NCBI RefSeq assembly: GCF_003602275.1
Contig: NZ_QZVT01000001.1
Span: 402,567-466,566, forward strand
Direction: 5' to 3'
Source: Arthrobacter cheniae
GTDB lineage: Bacteria > Actinomycetota > Actinomycetes > Actinomycetales > Micrococcaceae
Length of the DNA stretch: 64,000 nt
Shown piece after piece: positions 2,857 through 58,646 of the stretch. Numbering within the stretch: the stretch's first letter is position 1; the number at the start of each line of letters is the position of its first letter. Both the position numbers and the translations under genes were made by a program. The notes beneath the pieces are model-generated. The model ran no database searches and was not told the origin of the DNA. It saw nothing but the letters and a program-made list of their open reading frames with translations.

Positions 2857-4416
2857 ATGGTGCGCGGCGACGGACAACTTTCCCACGATCTTCTTCCCGG
2901 CGAAAAAGGACCACAGGATGCCTGCGGTGTTTTCGGCGTCTGGGCGCCCGGTGAGGAGGTGGCGAAGCTCGCCTACTACGGCCTGTACGCGCTGCAGCAC
3001 CGCGGCCAGGAATCGGCGGGCATCGCGACCAGCGACGGCCGCCGGATCAACGTCTACAAGGACATGGGCCTCGTCTCCCAGGTCTTCGACGAGTCCACCC
3101 TCAATACCCTGACCGGGCACATCGCCGTCGGGCATTGCCGGTACTCGACCACCGGGTCCTCGCACTGGGCCAACGCGCAGCCCACCCTCGGCGCCACCGC
3201 CGCCGGCACCGTGGCCCTCGCCCACAACGGCAACCTCACGAACTCCGCCGAGCTCTACCAGATGGTCCTCGCGCGCCACGGCAAGCCTCGGGCCGGTGAA
3301 CTCGCCCAGGGCAACACCACCGACACCGCACTGGTGACCGCACTCCTCGCCGGCAACGACGGCCGCTCGCTCGAGGACACGGCGATGGAACTCCTGCCGA
3401 GCATCCGCGGTGCCTTCTGCTTCGTCTTCATGGATGAAGGAACCCTGTACGCCGCCCGCGACGCCTACGGTGTCCGTCCTCTCGTCCTCGGTCGCCTCGA
3501 GCGCGGGTGGGTGGTCGCTTCCGAGCAGGCAGCCCTCGCGACCGTCGGTGCGAGCTACATCCGCGAGATCGAGCCCGGCGAGTTCATCGCCATCGACGAG
3601 GACGGCGTGCGCAGCAGCCGCTTCGCGACGCCGACCGCCGCCGGCTGCGTCTTCGAGTACGTGTACCTCGCCCGGCCCGACGCCGCGATCGCGGGCCGAT
3701 CGGTCTACGAGTCCCGTGTCGAGATGGGACGCCAGCTGGCCCGGGAGAACTCGGCGGAGGCGGACATCGTGATCCCCGTCCCGGAGTCGGGTACACCCGC
3801 CGCCGTGGGGTTCGCCGAGGAATCGGGCATCCCCTTCGCTCACGGGTTCGTGAAGAACGCCTACGTGGGCCGGACCTTCATCCAGCCCAGCCAGACCCTG
3901 CGACAGCTCGGCATCCGGCTGAAGCTCAATGCCCTGGAATCCGTCATCCGCGGCAAGCGCATCATCGTCGTCGACGATTCGATCGTCCGCGGCAACACGC
4001 AGCGCGCCGTCGTCCGGATGCTCCGGGAGGCGGGGGCAGCTTCGGTGCACGTGAAGATCTCGTCGCCGCCCGTGCGCTGGCCCTGCTTCTACGGCATCGA
4101 CTTCGCCTCCCGCGCCGAACTCATCGCCAACGGCGCCGCGATCCACGAGATCAGTGCGTCGATCGGAGCCGACAGCCTCGCGTACATTTCCGAGGACGGC
4201 ATGATCGACGCCACGCAGCAGCCCCGCGAGCGCCTGTGCACGGCGTGCTTCACCGGCACCTACCCCATCGAACTGCCCGATGACGACCGTCTCGGCAAGA
4301 ACCTGCTGGAACGCCTCGACCCGGCCGACAAGTCCGGTGCCACGGGATGCGATCCCGGGCCGGATGCCGAATTCGAAGCGGTCCTGACCGATGAAGACAA
4401 GAAAGAGCGGGTATGA
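2857..4416 (+). CDS. purF: Amidophosphoribosyltransferase PurF
   Basis: First committed enzyme of purine biosynthesis: glutamine plus PRPP gives phosphoribosylamine (519 residues, cytoplasmic). The N-terminal nucleophile is Cys23 in KGPQDACGVFGVW, so a 22-residue propeptide must be removed, as in the Bacillus-type enzyme. The glutaminase half shows YALQHRGQESAGI, GHCRYSTTG and AHNGNLTN. The phosphoribosyltransferase half carries the PRPP loop IIVVDDSIVRGNT (about 368-380). Cysteines in PVRWPCFYGIDF and ERLCTACFTGTYP match the ligands of the [4Fe-4S] cluster found in B. subtilis-type PurF. The gene overlaps purM by four bases. No clear ribosome site is seen before ATG 2857. Confidence 0.97.
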   Translation: MVRGDGQLSHDLLPGEKGPQDACGVFGVWAPGEEVAKLAYYGLYALQHRGQESAGIATSDGRRINVYKDMGLVSQVFDESTLNTLTGHIAVGHCRYSTTGSSHWANAQPTLGATAAGTVALAHNGNLTNSAELYQMVLARHGKPRAGELAQGNTTDTALVTALLAGNDGRSLEDTAMELLPSIRGAFCFVFMDEGTLYAARDAYGVRPLVLGRLERGWVVASEQAALATVGASYIREIEPGEFIAIDEDGVRSSRFATPTAAGCVFEYVYLARPDAAIAGRSVYESRVEMGRQLARENSAEADIVIPVPESGTPAAVGFAEESGIPFAHGFVKNAYVGRTFIQPSQTLRQLGIRLKLNALESVIRGKRIIVVDDSIVRGNTQRAVVRMLREAGAASVHVKISSPPVRWPCFYGIDFASRAELIANGAAIHEISASIGADSLAYISEDGMIDATQQPRERLCTACFTGTYPIELPDDDRLGKNLLERLDPADKSGATGCDPGPDAEFEAVLTDEDKKERV

Positions 4417-27401: not shown

Positions 27402-28025
27402 TCAGGCGACCTTGGCGCTGGTGAATTCCGTCATCGCGTCGAGCAGCCACTTCACGGTGTAGTCGCCGAAAGAGGCACGAGGCATGATCCGATACTCGTT
27501 GTCGCCGACCTGCCACAGCAGCACCTGCACCGGACCGAGTGTGGTGGAGACAGCTTTCCCGGGGCCGAACGCACGAGGGTGCAGATCCACATGGCATCCC
27601 TTCTCCAGCACCGCCCGCGCAGAGGGGCCGGACAACTCCAGTGTGGTCCGGTTCGCCGACAGGTCGACGACCTGGCCGAAGGACCCGGCACGGGCGAGCT
27701 CACGGCTCATCCGTACGGTCAGCGGGTGGGTTGCCAGGCTGATCAGGGCTCCGGGCTCCCGGTCCTGCCGGTCGGTGAGTTCCTCGGGGATGACGGTTTC
27801 GTCGGAGCTCACGAGCAGGAACTCGTCGGGCCCGAGCCACAGGACCGCGACGGCGTCCGCGCTGCCGGTCACTACTCCGCACCTATCGGGCCACGGCACG
27901 CCTGCGACGCACTTCTGGGTGCGGTTCTGGAGGGCGACTGCGAGAAGGCGAGCTCGATCATGCTGCGGCACGTCCAGGAGTTCGAGGCGCAGATCCGGAC
28001 CGTCCTGTGACCATCGCGGCGGCAT
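27402..28025 (-). CDS. Second SoxG-like protein (sarcosine oxidase gamma-like)
   Basis: A 207-residue protein whose C-terminal 145 residues closely resemble the SoxG encoded at 43.5 kb: [50 protein letters not shown] and the end PRASFGDYTVKWLLDAM. The first 60 residues do not resemble the other SoxG, which has [15 protein letters not shown] and a longer head. It stands alone between clpB and a divergent IclR regulator, far from soxBDA. It may be a partner of another GcvT-fold oxidase, a regulator, or a decaying duplicate. ATG 28025 is the best available start; its upstream region is only 57 bp and is shared with the IclR gene. Confidence 0.7.
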   Translation of the reverse strand: MPPRWSQDGPDLRLELLDVPQHDRARLLAVALQNRTQKCVAGVPWPDRCGVVTGSADAVAVLWLGPDEFLLVSSDETVIPEELTDRQDREPGALISLATHPLTVRMSRELARAGSFGQVVDLSANRTTLELSGPSARAVLEKGCHVDLHPRAFGPGKAVSTTLGPVQVLLWQVGDNEYRIMPRASFGDYTVKWLLDAMTEFTSAKVA

Positions 28026-28082: not shown

Positions 28083-28910
28083 ATGGCTTCGAACAATGAA
28101 CGCGACGTCGGCGTCGATGTGGAGACAGGCCAGCAGGGTGGCGTGCAATCGGTGGACCGGGCACTCACGGTCCTGGAGATCCTGGCGCGGGATGGCCATG
28201 CCGGGGTGAGCGACATCGCCGAGGAGATGGGCATCCACAAGTCCACGGTCTCCCGGCTCCTGGGTTCGCTCGTGAGCCGGGAGATGGTTCATCAGAACAG
28301 CGAGCGCGGCAAGTACCAGCTGGGTTTCGGCATCCTGAGACTGGCGAGCTCGATTCCCGGCCGATTGGGGCTGGTTCGAGAGGCGCGTCCAGTGCTGGAG
28401 AGCCTGGCCGAGGAATTCAAGGAGACCGTCAATCTCGCCGTCCTGCGCTCGGGCTACGCCGTCAATCTGGATCAGGCCATGGGGCCATCGACCCTGGCGA
28501 CGTTCGACTGGGTGGGTAGTCTGACACCGCTCCACGCCACGTCCAGTGGAAAAGTGCTGCTGGCGGCGCTGTCCGCGGAGGAGCGGGATCGGGTGCTGGG
28601 GGGAATCGGGATGCCTGCTCGGACTCCGCGAACCATCACCGACAGGAACGCGCTGGAAGCCGAGCTGCTGGAGGTCGCCCGCAGCGGCTATGGGATCGTC
28701 CGGGAGGAGTTCGAGATCGGGCTGAACGCGGCCGCGGTTCCGATCTTCAACCATCTGGGCACCGTGATCGGTGCAGTCAGTATCTCGGGCCCTGCGTTCC
28801 GCTTCGATCCCGAGGAGGCGTCTGTGCTCCTCGAGGGATTGAAGCAAGCCGGGCTGCGTATCAGCGCGAAGATGGGTTATGCCGGGCCCGAACGCATGGC
28901 CGGTGGTTGA
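28083..28910 (+). CDS. IclR-family transcriptional regulator
   Basis: A 275-residue regulator. The N-terminal winged helix (about 20-80) reads VQSVDRALTVLEILARDG, VSDIAEEMGIHKSTVSRLLGSLVSR; the effector domain follows (ATSSGKVLLAALS, GYGIVREEFEIGLNAAAVPIF, VIGAVSISGPAFRFD). It is divergent from the SoxG-like gene and convergent with the Rieske oxygenase gene. The natural targets are these neighbours; the mirrored 18-bp box at 31475/31601 is a candidate site. The ligand is unknown, perhaps a quaternary amine or its breakdown product. Confidence 0.88.
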   Translation: MASNNERDVGVDVETGQQGGVQSVDRALTVLEILARDGHAGVSDIAEEMGIHKSTVSRLLGSLVSREMVHQNSERGKYQLGFGILRLASSIPGRLGLVREARPVLESLAEEFKETVNLAVLRSGYAVNLDQAMGPSTLATFDWVGSLTPLHATSSGKVLLAALSAEERDRVLGGIGMPARTPRTITDRNALEAELLEVARSGYGIVREEFEIGLNAAAVPIFNHLGTVIGAVSISGPAFRFDPEEASVLLEGLKQAGLRISAKMGYAGPERMAGG

Positions 28911-28960: not shown

Positions 28961-30097
28961 TCAGGAGCTCGGGGTGACGTCCCCTACCTTGCCCGACACC
29001 CAGTCATGGAAGGCGGCGATGTGGTGTTCGCTGGGCACCAGGACACCGCCCTTGGCATAGACTTTCGAGCTCATGGCCGGCTGACAGCGCTCGCAGGCGT
29101 CGAAGTCCTGCTGGTTGACACGGTGGAACAGCTCCACGGACGCGCTGACGTCCTTGCCGCTTTCCACGACACTGGGCACGTACAGCCAGTCACACTCCAC
29201 CACGGTGCGGTCCGCGGCCAGGGGGAACATGCGGTGGATGATCACATGGTCCGGGACCAGGTTCACGAAGACCGTCGGTTTGATGGTGATGGCGTAGTAA
29301 CGGCGGTCCTGGTCCTCATCGATCCCCGGAATGCGGTCCAGTCCTTCGGAGCCGTCCACCGTGAAGCCCTTGATGTCGTCGCCGAAGTCGGCGCCGTGTC
29401 CCACGAAGTACTGCGCTGCGAGTCCATCGGCGAACTCCGGCAGCACCTCCGTCAGCTCCGGGTGGATGGTGGCGCAGTGGTAGCACTCCATGAAGTTCTC
29501 GATGATGAGCTTCCAGTTCGCCTTCACCTCGTAGCGGACCCGCCGGCCCAGACTGAGGTTGGCGACGTCGTATCCTTCGATCGCTTTTACATCGCCGAGC
29601 CGCTCCTCGATGGCGCCCATGACGTCCAGCTCGAACGACGGCGGCTCATCGGCCAGGCAGACCCATACATAACCGAGGTATTCACGGATGTGCACCTTCA
29701 CCAGACCGTATTCGTCCCGGTCGATGTCCGGCATCTTGGTCAGATTGGGCGCCGCGATGAGCCTGCCGTCGAAGTCGTAGGTCCAGGCGTGGTACGGGCA
29801 CTGGAACGACCGGGCAGCCACCCCCTGTTCCTCCATGCGGAGTTTCACGCCGCGGTGCCGGCATACGTTGTAGAAGGCGCGGATCCCACCTTTCCGGGTG
29901 CGGCTGATCAGGACGCTCTCGCGCCCGATCTGGACTGTCCGCCAGGCGCCCGGCCTGTCCAGATCGGCGGAACGGACGGCACAGAACCACATCTGTTCGA
30001 AAATCCGTTCCTGCTCCGCCCGGAAGATCCCCTCGTCCACGTAGGTGTACCCCGGAAGGGTCGGGATCAGGCTCGGGGTAGTCAGTTCAACGGACAA
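28961..30097 (-). CDS. Rieske oxygenase alpha subunit, substrate unknown (likely N-demethylase)
   Basis: A 378-residue Rieske non-haem iron oxygenase. The [2Fe-2S] ligands are Cys79/His81 (NVCRHRG) and Cys100/His103 (QCPYHAW); the mononuclear iron site includes His207 and His212 (NFMECYHCATIHP). The start is TTG 30097, with GAGGAG 5-6 bp upstream. It belongs to the same broad group as betaine and stachydrine demethylases but is clearly different from the GbcA at 62.3 kb. A FAD reductase (30182) follows upstream on the same strand and a Rieske ferredoxin (31681) is divergent, together making a three-component system. Given the island, a quaternary or methylated amine is the likeliest substrate; this is inference from context. 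Confidence 0.88.
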   Translation of the reverse strand: MSVELTTPSLIPTLPGYTYVDEGIFRAEQERIFEQMWFCAVRSADLDRPGAWRTVQIGRESVLISRTRKGGIRAFYNVCRHRGVKLRMEEQGVAARSFQCPYHAWTYDFDGRLIAAPNLTKMPDIDRDEYGLVKVHIREYLGYVWVCLADEPPSFELDVMGAIEERLGDVKAIEGYDVANLSLGRRVRYEVKANWKLIIENFMECYHCATIHPELTEVLPEFADGLAAQYFVGHGADFGDDIKGFTVDGSEGLDRIPGIDEDQDRRYYAITIKPTVFVNLVPDHVIIHRMFPLAADRTVVECDWLYVPSVVESGKDVSASVELFHRVNQQDFDACERCQPAMSSKVYAKGGVLVPSEHHIAAFHDWVSGKVGDVTPSS

Positions 30098-30181: not shown

Positions 30182-31438
30182 TCACACCAGCGCGGGAGCA
30201 TCCGTGTGAGCCGCTACCCGGTTCTCCCATGCCGGCAGCGGGGCGGTCAGGGGCGAAGCCGGCCGGGCAGGAGTTACCTGCGCCCGAACCGGGAGGCTTC
30301 GACGCCATCGGCCGAACAGCCGCGGCTGGTTCAGGGCCAGGACTGCAACCGGCGCATCCGCCCGGTAGTAGACGGCGAGGCAACTGTGGGCGTCCATCTC
30401 GCCGGCCTCGATCTCCAGCCGGTCGTAACCCGTGGAGTCGCCGGCGAATTGGAGCTTGACCCCGTACTGATCGGACCAGAAATAGTGTGGTTTGACCGGC
30501 TTCGGTTGCGCTTCGGGGTCCAGGAGCGTTTCGACGGCAAGGGCTGCGCGCTCGAAGGCCCCGGTCCAATGCTCCATGCGGTGGTGGCAACCGGTTGCGG
30601 GGTCGAACCAGGCGGCACAATCACCCACCGCCACGATTCCGGGAACGCTGGTGCGCCCCTCGGAGTCACACAGAACCCCGCCGGCCAGGTCCACGCCTGA
30701 GCCTGCCAGCCATTCGACGTTCGGTTCGGCGCCGATGCCGACGACCACGACGTCGGTTGCGATGTAACGTCCATCCTTCAGGTGGATGCCGGTGACGCCG
30801 CCTTCCTGGCCGTCGAAGGCTTCGATCACCGCGGAGGAGATCAGCTCCACACCGTTCGCTGCATGGAGGCCGCCGACCAGGGCGCCCATCTGCGCACCGA
30901 GCTGGACGCTGAACGGAACGGGCTTGGTATCGATGATGGTCACCTGCATACCCCGCGAGGCGGCCGCCGCGGCAACTTCAGCACCGATGAAACCGGCACC
31001 GATGACTGCCATCCTGTTTCCGGACACCAGGGCGGAAGCCAGGTTCTCCGCATCGGTAAGGGTTCGAAGTGTGTGGACATTGCCGGAGCCGACGAGGGCG
31101 GGCAGCGTGCGGGCCCTCGCACCCGTGGCGATGACGATGCCGTCCGCCTGGACGGTGCGTCCGTCGTCGAGCGCGATGGTTCGTGACGATACATCCAGGA
31201 ACACTGCTGCGGACCCCAGCATCCACTCGGCCCTCAGCTCCTCCGAGTCCGACTCCAGCAGGATGTCCTCGGCCTGGACCCTGCCGAGGAGGAAGTCCTT
31301 GGACAGCGGGGGCCGGTCGTAGGGCCGATGGGGCTCGTCCCCGATCAGAACAAGCCGACCGGAGAAGCCCTGGGCGCGCGCTGCCCGGGCCGCGGACAGG
31401 CCGGCCAGGGAAGCTCCTACGATTGCCAGCGTCTCCAT
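30182..31438 (-). CDS. FAD-dependent ferredoxin reductase
   Basis: A 418-residue oxidoreductase. FAD-binding fold at the N-terminus (LAIVGASLAGLSAARAARAQG; RPYDRPPLSKDFL), NAD-binding fold in the middle (MAVIGAGFIGAEVAAAAASRG, about 143-163), and the second FAD motif TSVPGIVAVGDCAAWFD (about 264-280). This layout is that of ferredoxin reductases of Rieske oxygenases and P450 systems. It lies 84 bp before the oxygenase gene on the same strand and is divergent from the Rieske ferredoxin gene, so it probably passes electrons from NAD(P)H to that ferredoxin. The C-terminal 30 residues are Pro/Ala rich and variable. Confidence 0.9.
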   Translation of the reverse strand: METLAIVGASLAGLSAARAARAQGFSGRLVLIGDEPHRPYDRPPLSKDFLLGRVQAEDILLESDSEELRAEWMLGSAAVFLDVSSRTIALDDGRTVQADGIVIATGARARTLPALVGSGNVHTLRTLTDAENLASALVSGNRMAVIGAGFIGAEVAAAAASRGMQVTIIDTKPVPFSVQLGAQMGALVGGLHAANGVELISSAVIEAFDGQEGGVTGIHLKDGRYIATDVVVVGIGAEPNVEWLAGSGVDLAGGVLCDSEGRTSVPGIVAVGDCAAWFDPATGCHHRMEHWTGAFERAALAVETLLDPEAQPKPVKPHYFWSDQYGVKLQFAGDSTGYDRLEIEAGEMDAHSCLAVYYRADAPVAVLALNQPRLFGRWRRSLPVRAQVTPARPASPLTAPLPAWENRVAAHTDAPALV

Positions 31439-31474
31439 CTACCAACATCCTTCGATCGCATTTTGCGCAACACT

Positions 31475-31618
31475 GATCGCTATATGCAACAGCGTCCTTG
31501 GATCGGATAACAGTGTCAAGAGTGAAGTGGCGGTCGGAACGGGATGGAGGACACATCGGCAGGAGGCGGTCTTGACAGGGCACGAGGACTGGCCCAGCCT
31601 GTTGCATATAGCGATCAC
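31475..31618. promoter_or_regulatory. Mirrored 18-bp boxes with two divergent TTGACA elements
   Basis: TGATCGCTATATGCAACA (31475-31492) and its exact reverse complement TGTTGCATATAGCGATCA (31601-31618) face outward toward the reductase and ferredoxin genes. In each direction TTGACA (minus strand at 31520-31515, plus strand at 31573-31578) precedes the box by exactly 22 bp. The symmetry points to two promoters controlled by the same regulator. Clear -10 boxes were not seen. Confidence 0.75.
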
Positions 31619-31680
31619 GGTTGTTCACTACGGAACAGCGCCGTATGGAGTGGCTCGACGCGATTCGCCCGCAGTAGGCC

Positions 31681-32073
31681 ATGGAGAAGAGGTTCCGCGT
31701 GCACAAGGCTTGTCCACTCAGCGAACTTGCACCAGGGGAAGCGCTCCGATTGGACACGACGCCCCCTATCGCCGTCTTCCACACGGAGGAGGGCGAACTT
31801 TTCGCCCTGGACGACACCTGCACCCATCAGGACGCGTCCCTCGCTGACGGCTGGGTCGAGGACTGCTGGGTCGAGTGTCCCCTTCACGCCTCGAGGTTCG
31901 ACCTCCGCACCGGAGCCGTCGACGCCCCGCCTGCCAAGCTGCCGATCCGATCCCACGCCGTCACCGTGATCGATGGCGACATCATGATCACGGAATCGAA
32001 GGATGCACCCAACCTTCCCCCGGGTCTCACGATGGCCTCGACACCGACGCCAGCACCCAGGAGCACGTCGTGA
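31681..32073 (+). CDS. Rieske-type ferredoxin
   Basis: A 130-residue electron carrier. The [2Fe-2S] ligands are in CTHQDASLADG (Cys-x-His) and CPLHASRFD (Cys-x2-His), about 20 residues apart, within a compact Rieske domain (about 5-105). The last 25 residues are an extra Pro/Thr/Ser-rich tail. It would link the FAD reductase at 30182 to the oxygenase at 28961. Its stop overlaps the GTG of the following ACT-domain gene (GTGA), so the two are coupled. Confidence 0.9.
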   Translation: MEKRFRVHKACPLSELAPGEALRLDTTPPIAVFHTEEGELFALDDTCTHQDASLADGWVEDCWVECPLHASRFDLRTGAVDAPPAKLPIRSHAVTVIDGDIMITESKDAPNLPPGLTMASTPTPAPRSTS

Positions 32074-32417
32074 CCATCCTGGTCGAGGGCCGACCAGCGG
32101 GCAGCACGACTGCCACGGCCGGCGCCGCGACGGCAACCAGGACCAGACGCGCCGAATTCGTCCTCACACTGTCCTGCCCCGAGCAACCCGGCATCGTCCG
32201 GGCCGTGACGGCATTCCTGGCGGACCTCGATTTCGACATCGTGGAACACCAACAGTTCGACGACCACGTGAGCGGGAATCTCTACCTACGCACCGCCTTC
32301 ACCGCCGGAGCGCCGGACGCCTCGCCGACACCTCATACGGCGGAGCTCCTCACGGCTGCGTTCGCTCCCCTCGCCGAGGACTTCGGGATGGGATTCGCCA
32401 TCGAAGTCGCCAGCTAG
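32070..32417 (+). CDS. Stand-alone ACT domain of PurU type
   Basis: A 115-residue protein. GTG 32070 has CAGGAGC upstream and overlaps the ferredoxin stop. After a Thr/Ala-rich head (about 1-28), residues 29-115 match the N-terminal ACT domain of formyltetrahydrofolate deformylase: EFVLTLSCPEQPGIVRAV, FDIVEHQQFDD and LYLRTAF, the same pattern as PurU at 51.0 kb. The protein ends where the formyltransferase-like catalytic domain should begin, and no continuation was found downstream in any frame. It is either a truncated purU copy or a free-standing regulatory domain that responds to one-carbon metabolites or glycine. Confidence 0.8.
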   Translation: MTILVEGRPAGSTTATAGAATATRTRRAEFVLTLSCPEQPGIVRAVTAFLADLDFDIVEHQQFDDHVSGNLYLRTAFTAGAPDASPTPHTAELLTAAFAPLAEDFGMGFAIEVAS

Positions 32418-33012: not shown

Positions 33013-34650
33013 CTATGCACTGGGCCGCGCGGCTCTGGTCCGGTCTGAGTCCGACACCATTGAAGTAACTGCTGAGGCGCCGGTTCGGGCGGAGCTTGGC
33101 GACGATTGACCGGTGATGCCCGCAGCGTGCTCGGCCAAGATTCCTGTCCGGTGTCGGATCCGCAGACGATAGAGCAGTGCCCCGCCGATGGTCACGGCGG
33201 CCACGAACATGACGCCGCCCCATTGCAGGTACCACGCGAAGGGCGGGACCGAGTTGTAGATCTCCGTTCGCGGCCAGATCAGGTTCAGGGTCATGGCCCC
33301 GCCCCAGAGCACCGCGAGGATGTTCACGGGGAGGCCCCACTTGCCCAGACTAAATCCTGCTTCAGATTCACCGTTGTCCGTCCCTGTGTCGGGAAGCGGC
33401 CACACCTTTTTGAAACGCCGCCGCAGCAGCGGCACTGTGACCAGCAGGTAGGACAGGTAGATCAGGACAATGCTGATGCTGGAGAGGATTGTGAAGATCG
33501 CCGGCTGGGAGACGTTAACGATCAGCGGAATGATGGCGATGATTCCGATGACGATGGCCGCGACGGTGGGCGTCTTCCGTTGTGGGTGCACCTTGCTGAG
33601 CTGGCGGCTGAAGGGCAGGTTGTTGTCTCGGGCCATAGCGAACATCATGCGGATGGCGGCAGCGTGGACAGCGAGCGCGCAGACACTGATGGCCACGACG
33701 ATGCACACCAGGAAGGCCTTTCCGAACGGACCGCCCAGTACGGATAGCACGATGTACTGCAGGCCGCCATCGGCAGATCCCAGCTTGGGATCGTTCAGGT
33801 CCGGCGCGGCCAGGAGCCCACCGAGGAGGATCAGGCCGCCTAGCACGAAGGACGCCGTGATTGCTCGGAGGATAGCTTTGGGGGCGGTCTTCTTGGGGTT
33901 CTTCGTTTCCTCACCGAGGGAACTGGCGGTGTCGAATCCGTACATCACGTAGCCGGAGGCCATGGCGCCGATCAGGAATACCCCGAAAAAGCCGAGGTCA
34001 TGGTTCTCGCCGAAGCCTGCGGTGTCGAAAAGGACCCCCGGCCCGCGCACTACGTGCCATCCGAGGGCCAGGATGAGGAGCGCGGCAGCGGTGAGCTCTA
34101 TGAAGACGCCGATGCTGTTGATCTTGGTCATCAGCCTCACGCCGAAGGCGTTGATGAGGGTGGAGATGGTGATCAGGACAGTAGCCAGCAGGACGCCGTT
34201 GATCGCGAAATCAAGCGCGCCGGTACCGTCCCCGACGATCTGGAACCCTGACCAGATCTGCGGCAGAGTGAGCTGCAGCGCCAGAGCGACGGCTCCCAGT
34301 GCCATGGTCGAGGAGATCAACAGCAGCCAACCCGCGAGCCAGGACCAGGTTCCGGAGGTTAGCTGTTTGGCCCAGTTGTAGACCGAACCGGCCACCGGGT
34401 AGCGGCCCGCCAATTCGGCGAAGCACAGCGCCACCATCAGCTGGCCTGCGAAAACGAGCGGCCAGGACCACGCGTAGGCCGGGCCGGCCATGGAATAACC
34501 GAAGTAGAACAGTTGGAAAACACCGGTGAGGATGGAGATGTAGCTGACGCCGGCGGCGAAACTGGCGAACTTGCCGATACTCCGATCCAGCGTTTGGGCG
34601 TAGCCGAACTCGTGCATGCCGCTCGTATCAATACTCTTGCTGCGTTCCAC
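33013..34650 (-). CDS. APC-family amino acid/amine permease (possible choline uptake)
   Basis: A 545-residue membrane transporter with about 12 hydrophobic segments, e.g. FASFAAGVSYISILTGVFQL, WLAGWLLLISSTMALGAVAL, AMASGYVMYGFDTASSLGEE and IFTILSSISIVLIYLSYLLV. The start is GTG 34650 with TAGGAG 8 bp upstream. The helix 6 segment YGFDTASSLGEETKNPKKTAPKAI is typical of APC amino acid permeases. Tandem TTGAACA-NN-TGTTCAA palindromes upstream are shared with betB-codA, so choline or a related amine is a reasonable substrate guess; the sequence itself does not show it. A C-terminal Ser/Thr/Ala tail of about 35 residues is soluble. Confidence 0.85.
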   Translation of the reverse strand: MERSKSIDTSGMHEFGYAQTLDRSIGKFASFAAGVSYISILTGVFQLFYFGYSMAGPAYAWSWPLVFAGQLMVALCFAELAGRYPVAGSVYNWAKQLTSGTWSWLAGWLLLISSTMALGAVALALQLTLPQIWSGFQIVGDGTGALDFAINGVLLATVLITISTLINAFGVRLMTKINSIGVFIELTAAALLILALGWHVVRGPGVLFDTAGFGENHDLGFFGVFLIGAMASGYVMYGFDTASSLGEETKNPKKTAPKAILRAITASFVLGGLILLGGLLAAPDLNDPKLGSADGGLQYIVLSVLGGPFGKAFLVCIVVAISVCALAVHAAAIRMMFAMARDNNLPFSRQLSKVHPQRKTPTVAAIVIGIIAIIPLIVNVSQPAIFTILSSISIVLIYLSYLLVTVPLLRRRFKKVWPLPDTGTDNGESEAGFSLGKWGLPVNILAVLWGGAMTLNLIWPRTEIYNSVPPFAWYLQWGGVMFVAAVTIGGALLYRLRIRHRTGILAEHAAGITGQSSPSSARTGASAVTSMVSDSDRTRAARPSA

Positions 34651-35076
34651 TATCTGAACTCCTAGATTGGAAAAGCACGATGGTGATGAACCGCGGTCGC
34701 CATTGGACGCAGGTGAACTCGACGGCTACCACCAAGTTCTGGTCCCCGCCGTTACGCCTCTGTTTTTGCCTGGGCCCTGTGCCTGCGCCGGTTTCTCAGG
34801 GAAAGGGATTCAACCAGCCTCTGGGTGCGACGTCCTGGCGGATGTAACAGCCTCGTGGTACTCGTCAGGCTGTATGCGACGTTCGGGCCGCACCGGTTGA
34901 GCGGCCCGGATCGTCGTCCGCGATCACCCTGGCCCGGTGTATCCGACGACCCCCGGCGCCTTCAGCAATGCCTGCCCGATTATGTGGTCGACCTGGTCCC
35001 AGGGGTAGCGGGAACAAAAACCGCCGAACCCGCTTTTGTGCGGGCTGGGTTCGGTGTGACCTGACTCATACGATGC
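34651..35076 (-). other. Long 5-prime leader of the permease gene
   Basis: If transcription starts just downstream of the -10 box at 35077-35082, about 420 bases of untranslated leader precede the GTG at 34650. No convincing gene and no riboswitch class that I recognise (for example the glycine aptamer core) was found in it. It holds several GC-rich inverted segments, e.g. GGGCCGCACCGG and GCGGCCC near 34886-34914. Confidence 0.45.
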
Positions 35077-38783: not shown

Positions 38784-39410
38784 TCAGGATTCTCGCGGTC
38801 TGTCCGGGTCGTGCTCGTTCGCTCCTTGACCGGCGAAGGCGATGTGTTCGGTGCGGAGGATGCTTCTCTGGATGGCTGCCTTGTCGATGCCGAGGAGCGC
38901 CGTCAGCCACATGCCGTTCTGTATGACGACGATGTCATCTGCACGCTCCCTGCACTCGGCGCGGGTGAGCCCGGTGTTGGCATTGCCGATGAGCGTCGCG
39001 AGCGCGTCGAGATACCGGTCGAACGCCGTCGCATTGATCAGCGCGAAATCCTCGTGGGCCTGCGCGAGAGCCCACAGGTGGAGACGCAGGGACAGGTAAG
39101 GAGTGGTCAGGAGGTCGGCGCCCGCAACGCGTCGTAGGGCGTTGCGGAGTTGTTCGTCCGGCGGCGAGCCCGGGTCTGGCTCGACGAGCATCCGGTCGTG
39201 CTCATCGATCCGGTGCAGGATCGCCCGGATCAGGCTTGCCTTGTCCTCGTAGTAGTAATTCACGAGTCCCAGTGCCACATCGGCCTCACGCGCCACAGCG
39301 CGCATGCTGACACCTGAGATGCCATGTCGTGACAGTACGGTCAACGCCGCCTCGAGGATGCGGGACTGCCTGTCAACCTGTTCGCCTGGGTTCACGGTCC
39401 TTGTATCCAC
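38784..39410 (-). CDS. TetR-family regulator (BetI-like)
   Basis: A 208-residue repressor. The N-terminal helix-turn-helix is clear (RILEAALTVLSRHGISGVSMRAVAREADVALGLVNYYY is spread over about residues 17-54, ending in EDKASLIRAIL). The C-terminal ligand domain resembles BetI-type regulators (LHLWALAQAHEDFALINATAFDRYL). The start is taken as GTG 39410; TAGTCT lies 6 bp before it and no Shine-Dalgarno is seen, so the transcript may be leaderless. It lies just upstream of betB-codA on the same strand, and the tandem palindromes before betB and before the permease are its likely targets. Choline or betaine aldehyde would be the expected inducer, by analogy. Confidence 0.87.
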   Translation of the reverse strand: MDTRTVNPGEQVDRQSRILEAALTVLSRHGISGVSMRAVAREADVALGLVNYYYEDKASLIRAILHRIDEHDRMLVEPDPGSPPDEQLRNALRRVAGADLLTTPYLSLRLHLWALAQAHEDFALINATAFDRYLDALATLIGNANTGLTRAECRERADDIVVIQNGMWLTALLGIDKAAIQRSILRTEHIAFAGQGANEHDPDRPRES

Positions 39411-43508: not shown

Positions 43509-44144
43509 TCAGGGGACCTCTGGCGAGGCGTATTCACGCATCGCATCGAGGAGCCACCGGCCCAGGAAGTCCGCGAAGGAGGCGCGGGGGAAGAGCCGGT
43601 AGCTTTCCTCACCAGTCTTCTCGAGGACCACCGGAATGTTGCCCACCTCGGTGTTCAGGGCTGTTCCCGGAGGAAAGGCGCGGGGGTGCAGGTCCAGGGA
43701 GCAGCCCTTCTCCAGCACTGCTCGGGCGCGGGCGCCGGAAAGTTCGAAGGTGGTGCGGTTCGCGGACAGGTCCACCACCTGGCCCGGTGACTCGCCCAGG
43801 GCAGCGTGGAGGGAACCGATGAGGTCACCGCCGAGCGAATCGTGGGCCTCTTCGGGTGCGACCACCAGGAACTCGGACGGCCCGAGCCAGAGGACGCTGA
43901 CGCCGTCGGCGCCGCCCACTCCACCGCAGCGGGTCGGCAGGCTGCCGGCCACGGCGGCGACCCGCGCGCCCTCCTCGGAGCGGGGGTCCACGCGGAGGCC
44001 CACCATGGTCTGGAACGGGCCCTCCTCGAGGATCACCGTCCCCTCGACGGACCCGGCCTCCATCGCGGCGGTCAGGTGGGAGGCAGGGCTGCGCCGGATG
44101 TCCCGGAGTCCATGAATGCCGTTGAGTGCTGCTGTGTTAGCCAT
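43509..44144 (-). CDS. soxG: Sarcosine oxidase gamma subunit
   Basis: A 211-residue subunit of heterotetrameric sarcosine oxidase with a GcvT-like fold. ATG 44144 gives [12 protein letters not shown] and overlaps the soxA stop by 8 bp. Family stretches: [63 protein letters not shown] and [18 protein letters not shown]. It is the last gene of glyA-soxB-soxD-soxA-soxG. A shorter relative is encoded at 27.4 kb. Confidence 0.93.
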
Positions 44145-47079
44145 CCTTGCGGGTCCCTTCGGGGTCGAAAAGCACGGTTTCGGCGACGACGACGTCGACC
44201 AGCTGGTCACCTGCGGCGGCCACCAGGGTCTCCCCGATACGGTTGCGGCCGTTCTTGATCAGTGCCAGGGCGAAGGTCCGGCCCAGGGCGGCACTGGAGT
44301 AGCTGGAGGTGACGAAGCCCTGCATCGGCACGGGACCGGCGGCCGGGTCGACGTCGATGCCGTGCTCCACCAGCTGGGTGCCTTCGGGGAGCCGGAAGGC
44401 ACGATCCACGGGCAGCACGCTCACCAGGTGCTTGCGGTCCTCGCGCTGGGCATCGGCCCGGGCGAAGGATCGCTTGCCGATGAACTCCTTGGCCTTGGAG
44501 ACCACCCATTCCATGCCTGCGTCCTGCGGGGTGACGGTGCCGTCGGTGTCCTGGCCGACGATCGGGTAGCCCTTCTCGGCACGGAGCACGTGCATGGTCT
44601 CGGTGCCGTAGGGGGTGATGTCGAATTCGGCGCCGGCGGCTGCCACGGCTTCCCAGGTGTTCAGCCCGTACCAGGCCGGCACGTTGATCTCGTAGGCCAG
44701 TTCGCCGGAGAAGGAGATCCGGCAGACCCGGGCCTGCACGCCGGAGGCGAGGGTGGTCTCTCGGAAGGTCATGAACGGGAAGGCTTCTGCCTCGAGCCCG
44801 CCATCCGCTGCGAGTTCCGGTGCGAGCTTGGCGATGACCGCTCGGGATCGAGGCCCGACGACGGCGATCGTGGTCCACTGCTCGGTGACCGAGGTGCAGT
44901 GCACGTCGAGGTCGGGCCATTCGGTTTGGAGCCATTCCTCCAGCCAGTCCAGCACCTTCGCGGCACCGCCGGTGGTGGTGGTCATGAAGTAGCGGTCGTC
45001 ATCGAGACGCAGGGTCACGCCGTCATCGAAGATCATGCCGTCCGCCGTGCACATGACGCCGTAGCGGGCAGAGCCCGGGGCGAGCTTCTTGAAGGCGTTG
45101 GTGTAGATGCGGTTGAGGAATTCACCGGCGTCCCTGCCGCGGATCTCGATCTTTCCGAGGGTGGTGGCGTCCATGAAGCCGACGGAGTCGCGGACGGCAG
45201 CGCACTCGCGCAGCACGGCCGCGTCCATGTCCTCGCCGGCCTGCGGGTAGTACCAGGGGCGCTTCCACTGTCCCACGTCCTCGAACAGGGCCCCCCTGGC
45301 CTCGTGCCACGGGTGGATGGACGTCTTGCGGGCGGGGTCGAACAGTTCACCGCGCTGGCGTCCGGCGAGTGCTGCAAAGGCCACCGGGGTGAACGGCGCA
45401 CGGTACGTGGTGGTCCCGATGTCACCGATGCCCCGCGACGCTTCACCGGCCGTGCGGAGTGCGGCGGCGATGACGCCGATCGCGTTGACGCCGGACGTCT
45501 TGCCCTGGTCGTTGGCGGTGCTGATGGAGGTGTAGCGCTTGATGTGTTCCACCGAGCGCATGCCCGCCCCGGTGGAGCGCAGGACGTCGGCCACGGACTG
45601 GTCGCGCTGGAAATCCACGAAGTGGGAGTGCCAGTCATCCGGCGTGCCGGTCTGACCCGGGACCAGCCACAGCTGGCGGGTCGGGGCGGACGCCTTCGGC
45701 TCGCCGGGAACGGACGGCTGCGTAGCCGACTCAAAGCCCACGGCCGTGGCGGCGGCTACGCCGGCGGAGATACCCTCGGCCAGGACATCCGCGAGGTCGA
45801 AACTACCGCGGCCGGAACCGATCGTCTGCTGGTTGGGGACCACCGTGCTCGGCACGAAAGCGGCCAGCTCGTCGTCCCAGCGCAGCTTGCCCTGCCGCTG
45901 CGAATGCAGGTGGACCAGCGGGCTCCAGCCACCGGAGACGGCCAGGAGGTCGCAGGCTATCTGCTCGGTCGGCGCGGTGAGTTCGCCGTCGTCGTTGATG
46001 CCGCGGACCGTGACGGTGTTCAGGCGACCGGTGCCGTCCGCAGAAGTGTCGACTACCGCGCTGCCGATCAGCACCCGTGTGCCGGCTGCGACGGCGGCAG
46101 CAGCCACATCGGTGAGCTGCGGACGGGCGTCCGCGACAGCTGCGATCTCGACACCGGCGGCGCGCAGGTCCGCGGCCAGAGCGTAGGCGCTGTCATTCGT
46201 GGTGCTGACGACGACGCGGTGTCCGGCGGCGACGGCGTAGCGGTTGAGGTAGCTGCGGACGGCGGAAGCCAGCATGATGCCCGGACGGTCGTTGTTCTCG
46301 AAGACCAGGGGGCGTTCGTGGGCGCCGGGGGCCAGCACCACCTGCGCGGCACGAATGTGCCAGATACGCTGGCGGGAGACGCCGGGTGCGGCGGGGCTCG
46401 ACAGGTGGTCGGTGCGGTTCTGGACGGCGATGACGTAGTTGGCGTCGTAGGCGCCGAACGCGGTGGTCCGGTTGAGAACGGTGGATTCGGAGCCCGAAAC
46501 GAGCTCGGCCTCGACGTCCGCCACCCATTCCAGGGCAGGCTTGCCTTCGATCGACTCGGCCAGCCCGGGGGCGGTCGACCCGGACAGCAGTGACCCTCCG
46601 AGCTCGGGCTGGTCATCCAGGAGCATGACGCGGGCGCCGCTGCGGACGGCTTCGCGGGCGGCGGCCAGGCCGGCAGGCCCGCCGCCGATGACCAGGACAT
46701 CGGTGTGGACGTACTTCTTGTCGTACTCGGCGCGGTCGTCCTCCGGGTCCAGCCTGCCCAGTCCGTTGAGCAGCTCTGCCTTCAGGCCGTCCACCAGGGT
46801 GACGGTCGTGGCCGGGAGCATGGACTCGGCCACGTGGCCCGTGAACCGGGGTTCGATACGAACCAACGCGTTGGATTCCTCCACGCCGGCGGACATTATG
46901 CCGCGGGCGCGGTTCTCGTACAGCGAGTTGCCGACGGCGATGCGGCCGTTGGCGAGCAGGGCTGAGGCGAGGGTGTCGCCGGGGTGACCGGTGAACTCCT
47001 CGCCGTCCACGGTGAAACGCCAGGAGATGGTGCGGTCGATGCGCCCGCCGGCGGCGAGGCGGGCGTTGTGGGAAGTCAC
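44137..47079 (-). CDS. soxA: Sarcosine oxidase alpha subunit
   Basis: A 980-residue subunit. It holds an N-terminal ferredoxin-like segment ([22 protein letters not shown]), a dinucleotide-binding domain with [21 protein letters not shown] (about 127-147), and a C-terminal GcvT-like folate-binding domain (about 590-975) with [42 protein letters not shown] and [16 protein letters not shown]. In this enzyme sarcosine is demethylated and the methylene is handed to tetrahydrofolate in the GcvT part. The start is GTG 47079, overlapping the soxD stop (GTGA) with GGAAGGAGC upstream. Confidence 0.96.
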
Positions 47080-50205: not shown

Positions 50206-50883
50206 CTAGGCGGCGAAGAGGGTCTCGCGCACAGCGTGCTCGAAGCCGCTGACGTGGAGACGCGCGAGCTCTCCGGCCCGGACTTCGTCCCCGTCGATGA
50301 CGGCACGGAGCAGGTCCACATGCTCATGCACGTGGTGCGACAGGTCGGGAAGGCGATCCAGGACCATGCACCAGATCCGTGTCGCAAGGTTGTCGTAGCG
50401 GATCAGGACGTCTTCGAGGTGGGGATTGCCGGCGGCTGCGTAGATGCCCTGGTGCACACGGGCATCCAGGCGCAGCGTCTCCACGACGGACGCCGCACTT
50501 GCGTCGAAGGACTCGACAGCGTGCATGACAGCCCTCAACTGCTCTCTCACCGGCTGCGTCGCCACCCGCGCAGCCCGGGAGGCCGCAAGGGGCTCGAGCT
50601 GGGTACGGATCTCGGAGATGAACGCGAGATCGGTGACCTCCACCCAGGTCGCGAAGGTCCCCCTCCGCGGATAGGAGATCACCAGGCGATCCAGCTCCAA
50701 CCGCTTCAGGGCTTCACGCACCGGCGTCCGGCCCACGCCGAGGTCCTTGGCGAGGTCGTCGTCATTGATCAGGTCGCCGGGCTTGATGTCCAGCATGAGC
50801 AGCCGGTCCCGGATGCGCTCGTAGGCCACCTCGGCCAGCGACCTCTTTGCCGCATCAGTGATTGCCAGAACTTCGTGAGCCAT
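50206..50883 (-). CDS. GntR-family regulator with FCD domain (1)
   Basis: A 225-residue FadR-subfamily regulator. Winged helix (about 12-78): RIRDRLLMLDIKPGDLI, DDDLAKDLGVGRTPVREALKRLELDRLV, SYPRRGTFAT. The FCD effector domain follows (SEIRTQLEPLAASRAARVA; LRLDARVHQGIYAAAGN; YDNLATRIWCMVL), with Asp and His residues placed for a metal site. It lies between the glyA-sox and purU-dmg operons, and both promoter regions carry a shared ATATATCA-type motif. It is clearly related to the second GntR at 58.0 kb. Confidence 0.88.
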   Translation of the reverse strand: MAHEVLAITDAAKRSLAEVAYERIRDRLLMLDIKPGDLINDDDLAKDLGVGRTPVREALKRLELDRLVISYPRRGTFATWVEVTDLAFISEIRTQLEPLAASRAARVATQPVREQLRAVMHAVESFDASAASVVETLRLDARVHQGIYAAAGNPHLEDVLIRYDNLATRIWCMVLDRLPDLSHHVHEHVDLLRAVIDGDEVRAGELARLHVSGFEHAVRETLFAA

Positions 50884-50970: not shown

Positions 50971-51004
50971 TCTCATGTTGCGGCATATACCTAAAGGAGG
51001 GGAC

Positions 51005-51919
51005 ATGACCCTAGTGGCGACAGACCCATCGACCAGCACGCTGCCTCAGTCGGAGGTCCACCTGGAGGAACAGACGAGGAAGTTCGTACTCACCCTGTCG
51101 TGCGTTGAACGGGCGGGCATCGTCCAAGCCGTGACCACCTTCCTCTTCGAACGTGGCTTCAACATCGACGAGCACCAGCAGTTCGATGACGGCCTCCGAC
51201 AGACACTCCATCTGCGCTCCGCCTTTTCCGGCTCGTCGGCCTACACCCCGGAGAGGCTTGAGGAGGAATTTCGTTCGATCGCCGACCGCTTCGACATGAA
51301 GTTCAGTTTCCATGACCAGACGAAGCAACGCATTCTCGTGATGGTGTCCAAGTTCGGCCACTGCCTGAACGACCTGCTCTTCCGCTGGCGGGGCGGAAGC
51401 CTCGGGGGCGATATCGCCCTGGTGGTCTCGAACCACGAGACCCATCGGGCCATGGCCGACGCCGCCGGCCTCCCCTTCATCTACCTTCCGGTGACCTCCG
51501 AGACGAAGGCGGCTGCCGAACAGCGCCTGCTGGAACTGGTGGACGAGTATGACATCGACCTCGTCGTGCTCGCCCGGTACATGCAGGTACTGTCCGACGA
51601 CCTCTGCCGCGCCCTTGAAGGCCGGGCGATCAACATCCACCATTCCTTCCTTCCGGGATTCAAGGGTGCACGCCCTTACCACCAGGCCTACGATCGGGGC
51701 GTCAAACTGGTGGGCGCGACGGCCCACTACGTAACTGCGGAACTGGATGAGGGTCCGATCATCGAACAGGAAGTCATCAGGGTCGACCACAGCTATGGAC
51801 CGACTGCCCTCTCCACCGTTGGCCAGGACGCCGAAGCACTGGCACTGTCACGCGCCGTGCGGTGGCACTGCGAGCACCGTGTGCTGCTGGATCGGACCAG
51901 CACCGTCGTGTTCCGGTAA
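51005..51919 (+). CDS. purU: Formyltetrahydrofolate deformylase PurU
   Basis: Hydrolyses 10-formyl-THF to formate and THF (304 residues). An N-terminal ACT domain (about 20-100; KFVLTLSCVERAGIVQ, IDEHQQFDD) is followed by the formyltransferase-fold domain with ILVMVSKFGHCLNDLL, VVSNHETHRAMA, INIHHSFLPGFKGARPYHQA and ATAHYVTAELDEGPIIEQ, which hold the catalytic Asn-His-Asp set. ATG 51005 has a perfect AAAGGAGG site 4-5 bp upstream, better than the TTG/ATG options above. It opens an operon with dmg, fchA, folD and pabB, and would regenerate free THF during betaine breakdown. Confidence 0.96.
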   Translation: MTLVATDPSTSTLPQSEVHLEEQTRKFVLTLSCVERAGIVQAVTTFLFERGFNIDEHQQFDDGLRQTLHLRSAFSGSSAYTPERLEEEFRSIADRFDMKFSFHDQTKQRILVMVSKFGHCLNDLLFRWRGGSLGGDIALVVSNHETHRAMADAAGLPFIYLPVTSETKAAAEQRLLELVDEYDIDLVVLARYMQVLSDDLCRALEGRAINIHHSFLPGFKGARPYHQAYDRGVKLVGATAHYVTAELDEGPIIEQEVIRVDHSYGPTALSTVGQDAEALALSRAVRWHCEHRVLLDRTSTVVFR

Positions 51920-56105: not shown

Positions 56106-57967
56106 TCCACCCCGGGCACACCTGTAATCCCGTGGAACCCGTTGTCGTATCCGTCGAACATATGGAAACACGTGAAGGGCAAGCCTTTGTGTCCATGCTC
56201 GTGCAGGTACTGAATTCGGTGTGTACGGCGCGGACCCACACCGATTGGGATGCCGACAGGGATTTGCCGCACGCGCCCGGCGAATGCCCCGACGTCGTTC
56301 TCATCACCGGCCGAGGCACCTCCGGGCACTGCATGCTCCGGGTTCTCCCCGGGCCACAGGACTCCCGGTTCGGGGCTCCGACGGAGATCTCAGTCCTGGA
56401 CCTTTCGCACCCGGAGGCGCCGCTACACGCCGCCGATGCTCTGGCCCAGCTTCCGGCCCTCGCCGCAGTTCGCGGGTTCGGGCAACTGTCCGCTCCCCCG
56501 TCCCTTTCCCGTGTCTCGCTTGAGGCCTATCCGGATCCGGAAGCGGTTTTCCACGAATTCTATGGACTGTCCAGCCACCGCGTCTGGCTGGACAGCTCCA
56601 ACTCGGCCACGGATCCCGTGGCGGGACGCAATCGCTACAGCATCATGGCTGACGATTCGGGCACCCGCGGAATGAGGGCACAGCATGCGAACGGCGTGAC
56701 CACCGTGGAATCGAAGCTGGTGGTCACCCGAATTTCCGGTCCCTTCTTCAGCTGGCTGGAAAGGAACTGGTACAGCAACCCGGCACCGGATCCGGATCTT
56801 CCCTCCGGGCTGGAGTTCGCCCTCGGCTGGCTGGGCTACCTAGGTTACGAGCTCAAGCGGGAGTGTGGCGGGAACGCAGTGGAATCACCGCTGCCAGATG
56901 CCTCGTTGATCCGCTGCAGCCGGGCCGTGGTTTTCGATCATGAGGCGCGGTGCGTGTTTCTTCTGGCCGAGGCCGGTGCGGAAGGCAGGCGATGGTGCAG
57001 TGACGCTGCACTGCGAATCGGGCGCCTGCCCTCCGCGGCCCGCCGACTCAGCAGCGGGTTGCCGGTCGTACAGTTCAGCGGAGCGGACTCCGGCCAGTCC
57101 TACCTGCGCAAGATCGCTGCCTGCCAGGACGAGATCGTGCAGGGGAATTCCTACGAGGTGTGCCTCACCACTCAGATCTTCGACGACCTCCACGAGAGCC
57201 TGGATCCGTGGGACTTCTATCGCAGACTCCGCCGGGCCAGCCCGGCGCCGTTCGCGAGCTTCGTCCAGCTGGGCACCGTGGCGATCGCGAGCTCCTCGCC
57301 GGAGCGGTTCCTCAGTATCACTGCGGACGGTCAGGTCCGTGCCGAACCCATCAAGGGAACCCGCCGGCGGGACGCGTCACCAGAGTCGGACAGGCAGCTG
57401 AAGCATGAGCTCAGGACCTCGACGAAGGACAGGGCGGAGAACATCATGATCGTGGACCTGATGCGGAACGACCTCTCCCGCCATGCCCAGCCGGGAACAG
57501 TCTCGGTCACACGGCTCTGCGACGTCGAGACGTACACGACGGCGCACCAACTGGTGAGCACGATCGAAGCCAAGATTGCCCGGGACCGGTCAAGGGCGGC
57601 TGTTGTCGCGGCTGCCTATCCCCCGGGTTCGATGACAGGGGCTCCCAAAATCAGCAGCATGGACATCCTCGACCGATTGGAATCCCGACCACGCGGGCCT
57701 TATTCAGGTGTGGTCGGCTACTTCTCGCCCACCGGCGCCGCCGACCTGGCGGTCACTATTCGTAGCGCCGTGTTCTCCACTCATTCCACGGACGGCCAGC
57801 GGCTGTCCGTGGGTATCGGCGGGGCCATCACGGCCGACTCCGACCCTGACGATGAACTGGCAGAGATCCACACCAAGGCCACTGCCATCCTTCGGGTATT
57901 CGGGGCACCGTTTCCTATATCCGCTCATGCGGGGCGGGTACGGGCTCGCGCTACAGTACCGCCCTGA
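56102..57967 (+). CDS. pabB: Aminodeoxychorismate synthase component I-like (PabB) with N-terminal extension
   Basis: A 621-residue chorismate-binding enzyme, overlapping the folD stop by four bases (ATGA). The catalytic core (about 330-605) shows GNSYEVCLTTQIF, FASFVQLGTVAIASSSPERFL, EPIKGTRRR, DLMRNDLSRHAQPG, YPPGSMTGAPK and YSGVVGYFSPTGAADLAV. The Lys in PIKGT marks the PabB type as opposed to the PIAGT of TrpE. A further N-terminal part (about 1-140) precedes the usual PabB head and lacks a glutaminase Cys motif, so ammonia transfer needs a separate PabA or the part is a worn amidotransferase domain. It makes 4-amino-4-deoxychorismate for p-aminobenzoate, the folate precursor, a logical partner in a THF-consuming pathway. 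Its 3-prime end overlaps the convergent GntR gene by 17 bp. Confidence 0.88.
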   Translation: MIHPGHTCNPVEPVVVSVEHMETREGQAFVSMLVQVLNSVCTARTHTDWDADRDLPHAPGECPDVVLITGRGTSGHCMLRVLPGPQDSRFGAPTEISVLDLSHPEAPLHAADALAQLPALAAVRGFGQLSAPPSLSRVSLEAYPDPEAVFHEFYGLSSHRVWLDSSNSATDPVAGRNRYSIMADDSGTRGMRAQHANGVTTVESKLVVTRISGPFFSWLERNWYSNPAPDPDLPSGLEFALGWLGYLGYELKRECGGNAVESPLPDASLIRCSRAVVFDHEARCVFLLAEAGAEGRRWCSDAALRIGRLPSAARRLSSGLPVVQFSGADSGQSYLRKIAACQDEIVQGNSYEVCLTTQIFDDLHESLDPWDFYRRLRRASPAPFASFVQLGTVAIASSSPERFLSITADGQVRAEPIKGTRRRDASPESDRQLKHELRTSTKDRAENIMIVDLMRNDLSRHAQPGTVSVTRLCDVETYTTAHQLVSTIEAKIARDRSRAAVVAAAYPPGSMTGAPKISSMDILDRLESRPRGPYSGVVGYFSPTGAADLAVTIRSAVFSTHSTDGQRLSVGIGGAITADSDPDDELAEIHTKATAILRVFGAPFPISAHAGRVRARATVPP

Positions 57968-58646
57968 TGAGGTTTTCGAAGTCGGTGACGTGCTGGGTGG
58001 TCAACCGCGCAGCAGCTTCGGAGTCCCCCGCCGCGATGCACTCGAGTAGCTCGATATGCTGGGCGATGTGCTCGGATACCGGCGGGAGCTTTTCGAGCAC
58101 CAGGCTCCAGATCCGCGTCGCAAGGTTGTCGTATCGGACCAGAATGTCTTCAAGGTGCCGACTGCCAGTGGCCCGGTAAATCGTCCGATGAACCCGCATG
58201 TCCAGGCGCATGAGATCTTGCTGTGAGTGCATCCCTGGTAACAGCTGCCCGACCTCCGACGCGAACTCCCGGAGCTCCTGCCGGAGTTGTGGCGAAGCGA
58301 TCCGCGCGGCCCGTGCGGCTGCCGCAGGCTCCAGGAGCTGTCGGATCTCGGAGATCTCAGCCAGGTCCTTGATATCCACGCCAGCGGCGAATGTTCCGCG
58401 CCGAGGGTAGGCCACCACCAGATGGTCACTCTCAAGCCGCTTCATGGCTTCGCGGATCGGCGTCCTGCCGACGCCGAGTCGCCGGGAGATCGCCTCGTCA
58501 TTGAGAGGTTCACCCGGCTTGATGTCCAGAACGATCAATTCGTCACACAACATCCTGTAGGCGAAGTCGGCGAAGGATTCGTCATCCTGCCTAAGCGGCG
58601 CCAACGAGCTGCCTGCTTCCACCGGTAATCCGCCAGCGCGCGCCAT
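57951..58646 (-). CDS. GntR-family regulator with FCD domain (2)
   Basis: A 231-residue FadR-type regulator, related to the one at 50.2 kb (shared GVGRTP.REA.KRLE, YPRRGTFA, YDNLATRIW). Winged helix about 20-88, FCD domain about 95-225 with LRLDMRVH replaced by MRLDMRVHRTIYRATGSRHLED. ATG 58646 has GGAGG upstream. It is divergent from the BCCT transporter, and the 400-bp region between them contains two or three copies of the CTGATATATCAG-like motif. It probably represses itself and the transporter. Confidence 0.88.
   Translation of the reverse strand: MARAGGLPVEAGSSLAPLRQDDESFADFAYRMLCDELIVLDIKPGEPLNDEAISRRLGVGRTPIREAMKRLESDHLVVAYPRRGTFAAGVDIKDLAEISEIRQLLEPAAAARAARIASPQLRQELREFASEVGQLLPGMHSQQDLMRLDMRVHRTIYRATGSRHLEDILVRYDNLATRIWSLVLEKLPPVSEHIAQHIELLECIAAGDSEAAARLTTQHVTDFENLIRAVL

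Follow-up and report, generated by a model that had tools for sequence, protein, structure and literature searches.

How does a bacterium keep the parts of one enzyme in step when their genes are read away from each other? This question is raised by a locus of Arthrobacter cheniae in which the genes for a three-component Rieske oxygenase lie on both sides of a 242-bp divergent gap. We analyzed the locus within a stretch of 64,000 nucleotides, here called the window. To the left of the gap, on the minus strand, lie the ferredoxin reductase gene (30182-31438; Pfam Pyr_redox_2 and Reductase_C), which is the first gene of the leftward operon, and the gene for the Rieske oxygenase (28961-30097), which we propose to be the catalytic component of a glycine betaine monooxygenase. 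To the right, on the plus strand, lie the Rieske ferredoxin gene (31681-32073) and a gene for the N-terminal ACT part of PurU (32070-32417; 115 aa) without the formyltransferase part. What a sequence-only reading of this DNA had called a ferredoxin-ACT pair is thus a ferredoxin together with an N-terminal fragment of PurU. PurU is a formyltetrahydrofolate deformylase, and a full-length PurU-like open reading frame (ORF) is found elsewhere in the window (50975-51919). The ferredoxin may instead start at GTG 31699, behind GGAGAAGAGG; the ferredoxins of two related loci, L021 and L007, read MHKACPL at this alternative start. Adjoining the oxygenase gene is iclR (28083-28910, plus strand; Pfam IclR_C and HTH_IclR), which encodes an IclR-family regulator that we propose as the ligand of four sites in the gap.

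The gap contains a mirror-image element. The 18-bp box TGTTGCATATAGCGATCA occurs exactly twice in inverted orientation, at 31474-31491 on the minus strand and at 31600-31617 on the plus strand. The copies are 108 bp apart, and on both sides TTGACA lies 22 bp from the box. The sequence-only reading had described this exact inverted pair and its distances, and the description holds apart from coordinates that were off by one. In 100 shuffled versions of the window, searched at up to three mismatches, the box was matched 0.01 times on average and no shuffle contained two matches. The inverted likeness around the boxes reaches 25 nt (92%). A search of the 4.02-Mb assembly (37 contigs) for further copies, as that reading had suggested, returned these two alone, exactly or within two mismatches, and one extra match at three mismatches. 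A looser operator pattern was matched without mismatch at this locus alone; at one to two mismatches it gave 87 matches in the assembly, compared with 59 for its backwards control.

Each TTGACA is the -35 element of a promoter-like sequence, and the layout is the same on both sides: TTGACA-N17-nAnnnT followed by two IclR-type sites with centers 19 nt apart. On the reductase/oxygenase side the -35 TTGACA (31514-31519, minus strand) is separated by 17 bp from the -10-like hexamer GACGCT (31491-31496, minus strand), and on the ferredoxin side TTGACA (31572-31577, plus strand) is separated by 17 bp from CAGCCT (31595-31600, plus strand). The last T of each hexamer is the first base of the box. Judged by the sigma-70 criterion, the -35 element and the 17-bp spacer are present, and the -10 has A2 and T6 and lacks T1 of TANNNT. 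The earlier reading had picked out TTGACA and had named no -10. The hexamer TATAGC within the box was considered as the -10 for TTGACA and rejected because of the 29 bp that would separate the two. The nAnnnT hexamer at 17 bp fits instead, and its A2 is conserved: the A at position 2 is found in 30 of 31 reductase-side and 33 of 35 ferredoxin-side promoters of Micrococcaceae, while T6 in these promoters is fixed by the filter used and is therefore circular.

Many Micrococcaceae promoters also carry a CRP-like palindrome in the region of the -35/-10 spacer, on both mirrored sides of the locus, for example upstream of the reductase gene of L021. Against a CRP consensus, at least 9 of 12 specified positions are matched in 14 of 31 promoters on the reductase side and 25 of 35 on the ferredoxin side, in rows that are not independent and for a feature first spotted by eye. 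Among 400 segments of 40 bp taken at random from the window, none reaches 9 of 12. The palindrome is absent from the window's own two promoters, both of which score at background.

The box had been read as the binding unit. It is indeed part of the operator, but it makes up only half of it: 19 nt on, between centers, follows a second, diverged site that was no part of the first observation. We refer to the box as O1 and to the second site as O2. On the reductase side (minus strand), O1 has a 17-bp consensus frame at 31474-31490 with its center at 31482, and O2, GTTGCGCAAAATGCGAT, spans 31455-31471 with its center at 31463. On the ferredoxin side (plus strand), the frame of O1 is 31601-31617 with its center at 31609, and O2, GTTGTTCACTACGGAAC, spans 31620-31636 with its center at 31628. 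Suvorova and Gelfand (2021, PMC8222616) give GTTYCRYW3RYGRAAC as the consensus of the IclR GTT-11-AAC subgroup. For 94 orthologous groups they report a distance of 18-22 nt between tandem sites, which agrees with binding as a tetramer, and they find the centers of group-1 tandem operators mostly at -20 to -80 from the gene start. All four sites match this consensus, imperfectly, at 13 of 17 positions. Matches at 13/17 or better occur at 21 places in the 64-kb window, four of them in the divergent gap, and the only two tandem pairs at 13/17 are the left and the right O1/O2. Window-sized Markov controls gave 2 pairs in 15 sequences, and a further 60 gave a mean of 0.03 with a largest value of 1; in reading these figures it matters that the sites had already been seen when we settled on the frame, on the 13/17 level and on this subgroup, which fits best among the four. 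At 12/17 the window has three pairs, two of them at this gap, against a control mean of 1.65. Of the three other published subgroups, WTT-11-AAW recovered only the left pair at 13/17. TGT-11-ACA had no pair at the gap until the level was lowered to 12/17, where it gave a single left pair in a shifted position, and NGT-12-ACN gave no pair at this gap.

The positions of the sites are in accordance with the published rules as well. The spacing between centers (31463/31482 and 31609/31628) is 19 nt in both pairs, inside the 18-22 nt range. The reductase-side centers lie at -25 and -44 from the gene start, inside -20 to -80. On the ferredoxin side they lie at -53 and -72 from ATG 31681, or at -71 and -90 if GTG 31699 is the start, in which case -90 is outside the range. 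Elsewhere in the window, a 14/17 match to the IclR consensus (34644-34660) overlaps the start codon of an APC permease gene (33013-34650) and is without a tandem partner at 13/17.

This arrangement suggests how the two sides could be coupled. Two divergent sigma-70-type promoters would each carry an IclR-type pair over and downstream of the expected start, with the 19-nt spacing corresponding to about two helical turns. The IclR protein would place two dimers on each pair and block initiation in both directions. We infer repression from the placement of the sites: the expected start falls within O1, and O2 covers the bases transcribed first. The inducer, for which glycine betaine itself or one of its breakdown products is the most likely candidate, would then release both promoters at once, and as a result of this simultaneous release the reductase and oxygenase would be made together with the ferredoxin. 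From the sequence evidence we consider it probable that both operators are bound by tandem dimers of the iclR product (28083-28910) and that this protein represses both halves until the inducer appears. Most likely, then, the paired operators switch both halves of the betaine-degrading enzyme together; that there are two equivalent operators fits the idea, put forward in the sequence-only reading, of two halves kept in step.

The same sites and the same IclR protein could instead serve activation, or regulation in both directions. Activators and dual regulators do occur in the IclR family (PMC8222616), and the poor -10 hexamers may mean that the promoters need help. Nevertheless, each pair has its two sites either on the expected start or beyond it. 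Judging from the layout, protein bound there would usually hinder the polymerase, and we regard activation as unlikely.

In order to follow the element through related bacteria, we compared the divergent gap in 36 loci, comprising the window, 31 named Micrococcaceae and four loci from the window's genus; L093, where the ferredoxin gene is not divergent, was excluded from the Micrococcaceae counts. From the Micrococcaceae boxes, pre-filtered for an upstream TTGAC and for TGTT, we derived a matrix of 16 columns. Since the matrix was trained on those boxes, its scores within the family are circular and describe conservation, rather than giving independent proof; the tests that are independent of the Micrococcaceae boxes are the published consensus and the distant loci. 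A ferredoxin-side site of at least 12 bits is found in all 36 loci, with TTGAC at 22 bp (25 loci) or 23 bp (11 loci). On the reductase side such a site is found in 33 of 36 loci and is missing in L046, L047 and L067. TTGAC lies 22-23 bp away in 31 of these 33; of the remaining two, one has it at 19 bp and in one it was not found. Within this window there is no matrix site at iclR itself. The earlier reading had spoken of perfect conservation, which is true of the two copies in this genome and is seen nowhere else: among the 33 loci scored on both sides the boxes are identical in the window only, with 1-8 mismatched positions out of 18 in each of the remaining 32. Overall, the mirror-image element is a genuine, conserved regulatory element.

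The mirror arrangement also invites the idea that the regulator bridges the two operators into a loop that shuts both promoters, which would be compatible with repression by IclR as proposed above. The 12 distinct distances between the operator centers cluster weakly on the helical repeat (Rayleigh R 0.49-0.53). These distances range from 90 to 127 bp, however, in related rows that are not independent, and two of them, 127 bp in the window and 96 bp in L031, do not by our reading share the common phase. We regard a loop of this kind as unlikely.

Which protein, then, binds the sites? The sequence-only reading had named the IclR protein at 28.1 kb as the nearest candidate, and its neighborhood is persistent. 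The iclR gene is kept next to the cluster in most relatives examined: an IclR relative lies in the fetched flank of 25 of the 31 named Micrococcaceae loci and of 46 of 48 distant loci, and is displaced in two of those 25 (L023 and L044). Five of the six Micrococcaceae loci without a flanking IclR reach a contig end; the sixth, L041, does not, and its IclR is found elsewhere in the genome. We searched 12 genomes for IclR, ten of them picked for a missing or displaced copy, and all 12 contain a relative at E ≤1e-30, with the best relatives in the eight Micrococcaceae among them being 73-84% identical. Aligned relatives retain the recognition helix HKST as long as their overall identity is about 46% or higher; L013, a 31% relative, is the sole aligned row without it.

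Across 57 genomes, the window's own included, the reductase has a match at E 1e-60 in 16 and at 60% identity or more in seven, and IclR at E 1e-60 is found in the same seven. Allowing one mismatch at most, the operator pattern is found in these seven, although in G001 and G011 it is confined to a single side; single one-mismatch matches also occur in G005 and G018, both without the IclR orthologue, and the backwards control of the pattern had no match in the 57 genomes. As the cluster travels as a unit that includes box, regulator and enzymes, this co-occurrence does not single out IclR. Taken together with the site rules of PMC8222616, the persistent neighborhood and the conserved recognition helix support the candidate, and the neighboring IclR protein is very probably the binder of the paired sites.

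The distant loci provide a test outside the matrix training. The set consists of 48 loci from Streptomyces, Sphaerimonospora, Nonomuraea, Amycolatopsis, Kutzneria and others, none of which contributed to the matrix. The Micrococcaceae matrix finds 120 sites of at least 9 bits in 45 of these loci and 34 sites of at least 15 bits in 22 loci. Thirty column-permuted matrices, which spread widely, gave a mean of 5.8 sites (largest 43) at 9 bits and 0.77 (largest 17) at 15 bits. Only one of the 120 sites falls inside matched genes, whose summed spans cover 241,943 of 607,672 bp; this location between genes holds against matched genes only, since genes without a counterpart among 12 window proteins are unmapped. 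For 69 of the 120 sites a matched gene begins no more than 250 bp downstream; the other 51 have none within that distance. The 69 fall before the codA-like gene (32), fdx (22), iclR (19), betB (7), rieskeO (3), act/purU (3) and red (2), where one site can be counted for two genes. In Streptomyces, matrix sites are found at iclR and between iclR and the codA-like gene. Such sites recur in betaine-type clusters of Streptomyces and other actinobacteria in which an IclR gene with the conserved recognition helix is present. A matrix site precedes purU in L098, and in L060 a site precedes a gene for S-(hydroxymethyl)mycothiol dehydrogenase (passing the NCBIfam cut-off), which we take to be a formaldehyde-removing enzyme. 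The view that the box is under selection for binding, which the sequence-only reading had derived from one genome, is supported at the sequence level by the comparison across Micrococcaceae and, for distant actinobacteria, by the sites that fall outside the matched genes. As a separate observation, a minus-strand site recurs at 3500-4000 in 16 of the 48 distant loci, for example at 3606 in L061 (25.3 bits), where the candidate gene behind it has no NCBIfam match at 1e-30.

Another protein could bind the box, namely a BetI-like TetR protein (38784-39410), a GntR protein or a factor encoded outside the window. The TetR protein lies in the same region and shows weak similarity to BetI (51.4 bits, below the 201.3 cut-off). 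The possible GntR proteins are two ORFs (50206-50883 and 57951-58646) whose likeness to GntR was judged only by eye. Such a binder is improbable, as the sites fit the IclR-family consensus and its tandem spacing, IclR is the persistent neighbor, and Streptomyces has sites between iclR and the codA-like gene. Finally, an inverted pair of exact 18-bp copies with 108 bp between them could be taken for an RNA or DNA hairpin or for the ends of a mobile element, which we reject as very improbable because the arms diverge in 32 of 33 scored loci, so that full pairing is not kept, the assembly holds no further copy within two mismatches, and the layout is bound to promoter-like elements.

The enzyme's likely substrate can be approached through its neighbors. 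Behind the ferredoxin gene of L037 come a full PurU gene (passing its cut-off) and a sarcosine oxidase alpha/GcvT-like gene, which we take to encode dimethylglycine oxidase. In L021 the place behind the ferredoxin gene is taken by a BCCT transporter gene, with PurU- and dimethylglycine-oxidase-like ORFs after it; the transporter passes the BCCT subfamily cut-off, and its best model, for glycine betaine uptake, is below its own cut-off. A dimethylglycine-oxidase-like ORF seems, by eye, to lie directly behind the ferredoxin in L040 and L007. From this gene context we infer glycine betaine as the substrate of the three-component oxygenase. A second Rieske oxygenase is encoded in the window (62309-63613). 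It has an 89-92% identical copy in two of 14 genomes with the three-component locus, and the other 12 contain matches of at most 40% identity only, so the three-component enzyme may be the sole betaine oxygenase of those 12. Three further features of the region were seen in passing. A SoxG-like gene (27402-28025) adjoins iclR, away from soxA and soxB; a second SoxG-like ORF, recognized by eye, lies at 43509-44210 behind soxA at 44137-47079; and a second dimethylglycine-oxidase-like copy with an in-frame TAG is found just past the window (G000:C33:470849-472810).

Could the regulon be wider than this locus? It is possible, though we hold it only tentatively, that we are dealing with a new actinobacterial IclR regulator with an operator of about 38 bp, reaching from Micrococcaceae to Streptomyces, Nonomuraea and Sphaerimonospora. 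Under its control would be PurU, choline/betaine-aldehyde oxidation and formaldehyde removal as well as the three-component oxygenase. In many Arthrobacter and Pseudarthrobacter loci it would be joined by a CRP-like site in the -35/-10 spacer of the two mirrored promoters, an input that those of the window lack. No IclR regulator of glycine betaine breakdown is named in the titles or abstract starts among the open-licence PMC matches listed, and the regulator may already figure in the supplementary tables of PMC8222616 or in RegPrecise. The locus provides a concrete, testable operator and a candidate regulator for actinobacterial glycine betaine breakdown. The matrix could list the regulon across the phylum and help to name the substrate of the three-component Rieske enzyme.

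Comparison with known systems places both the proteins and the operator. BhcR has a role in the beta-hydroxyaspartate cycle. Its model (NF045644) is the best NCBIfam model for the IclR protein, at 183.9 bits and below the 350 cut-off. The nearest NCBIfam model for the oxygenase is GbcA (NF058607), with 216.5 bits and below the 670 cut-off; the second Rieske oxygenase is closer to GbcA at 375.6 bits, also below 670. In contrast to the GbcA glycine betaine monooxygenase, the enzyme described here has three components. By title, the Arthrobacter dimethylglycine and sarcosine gene clusters of Meskys et al. (2001) belong to the same pathway and host group. With the group-1 tandem operators (PMC8222616) the operators of this locus share the 17-bp GTT-11-AAC frame, the 19-nt tandem, the position near the gene start and the adjoining IclR gene. 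They differ from the group-1 consensus in the left half, with GTTGC instead of GTTYC, and in the right half of O1, with GCGATCA instead of YGRAAC, and unlike those operators the pairs here are mirrored on two divergent promoters. The type of switch is already well known, and this pair is a well-made example of it.
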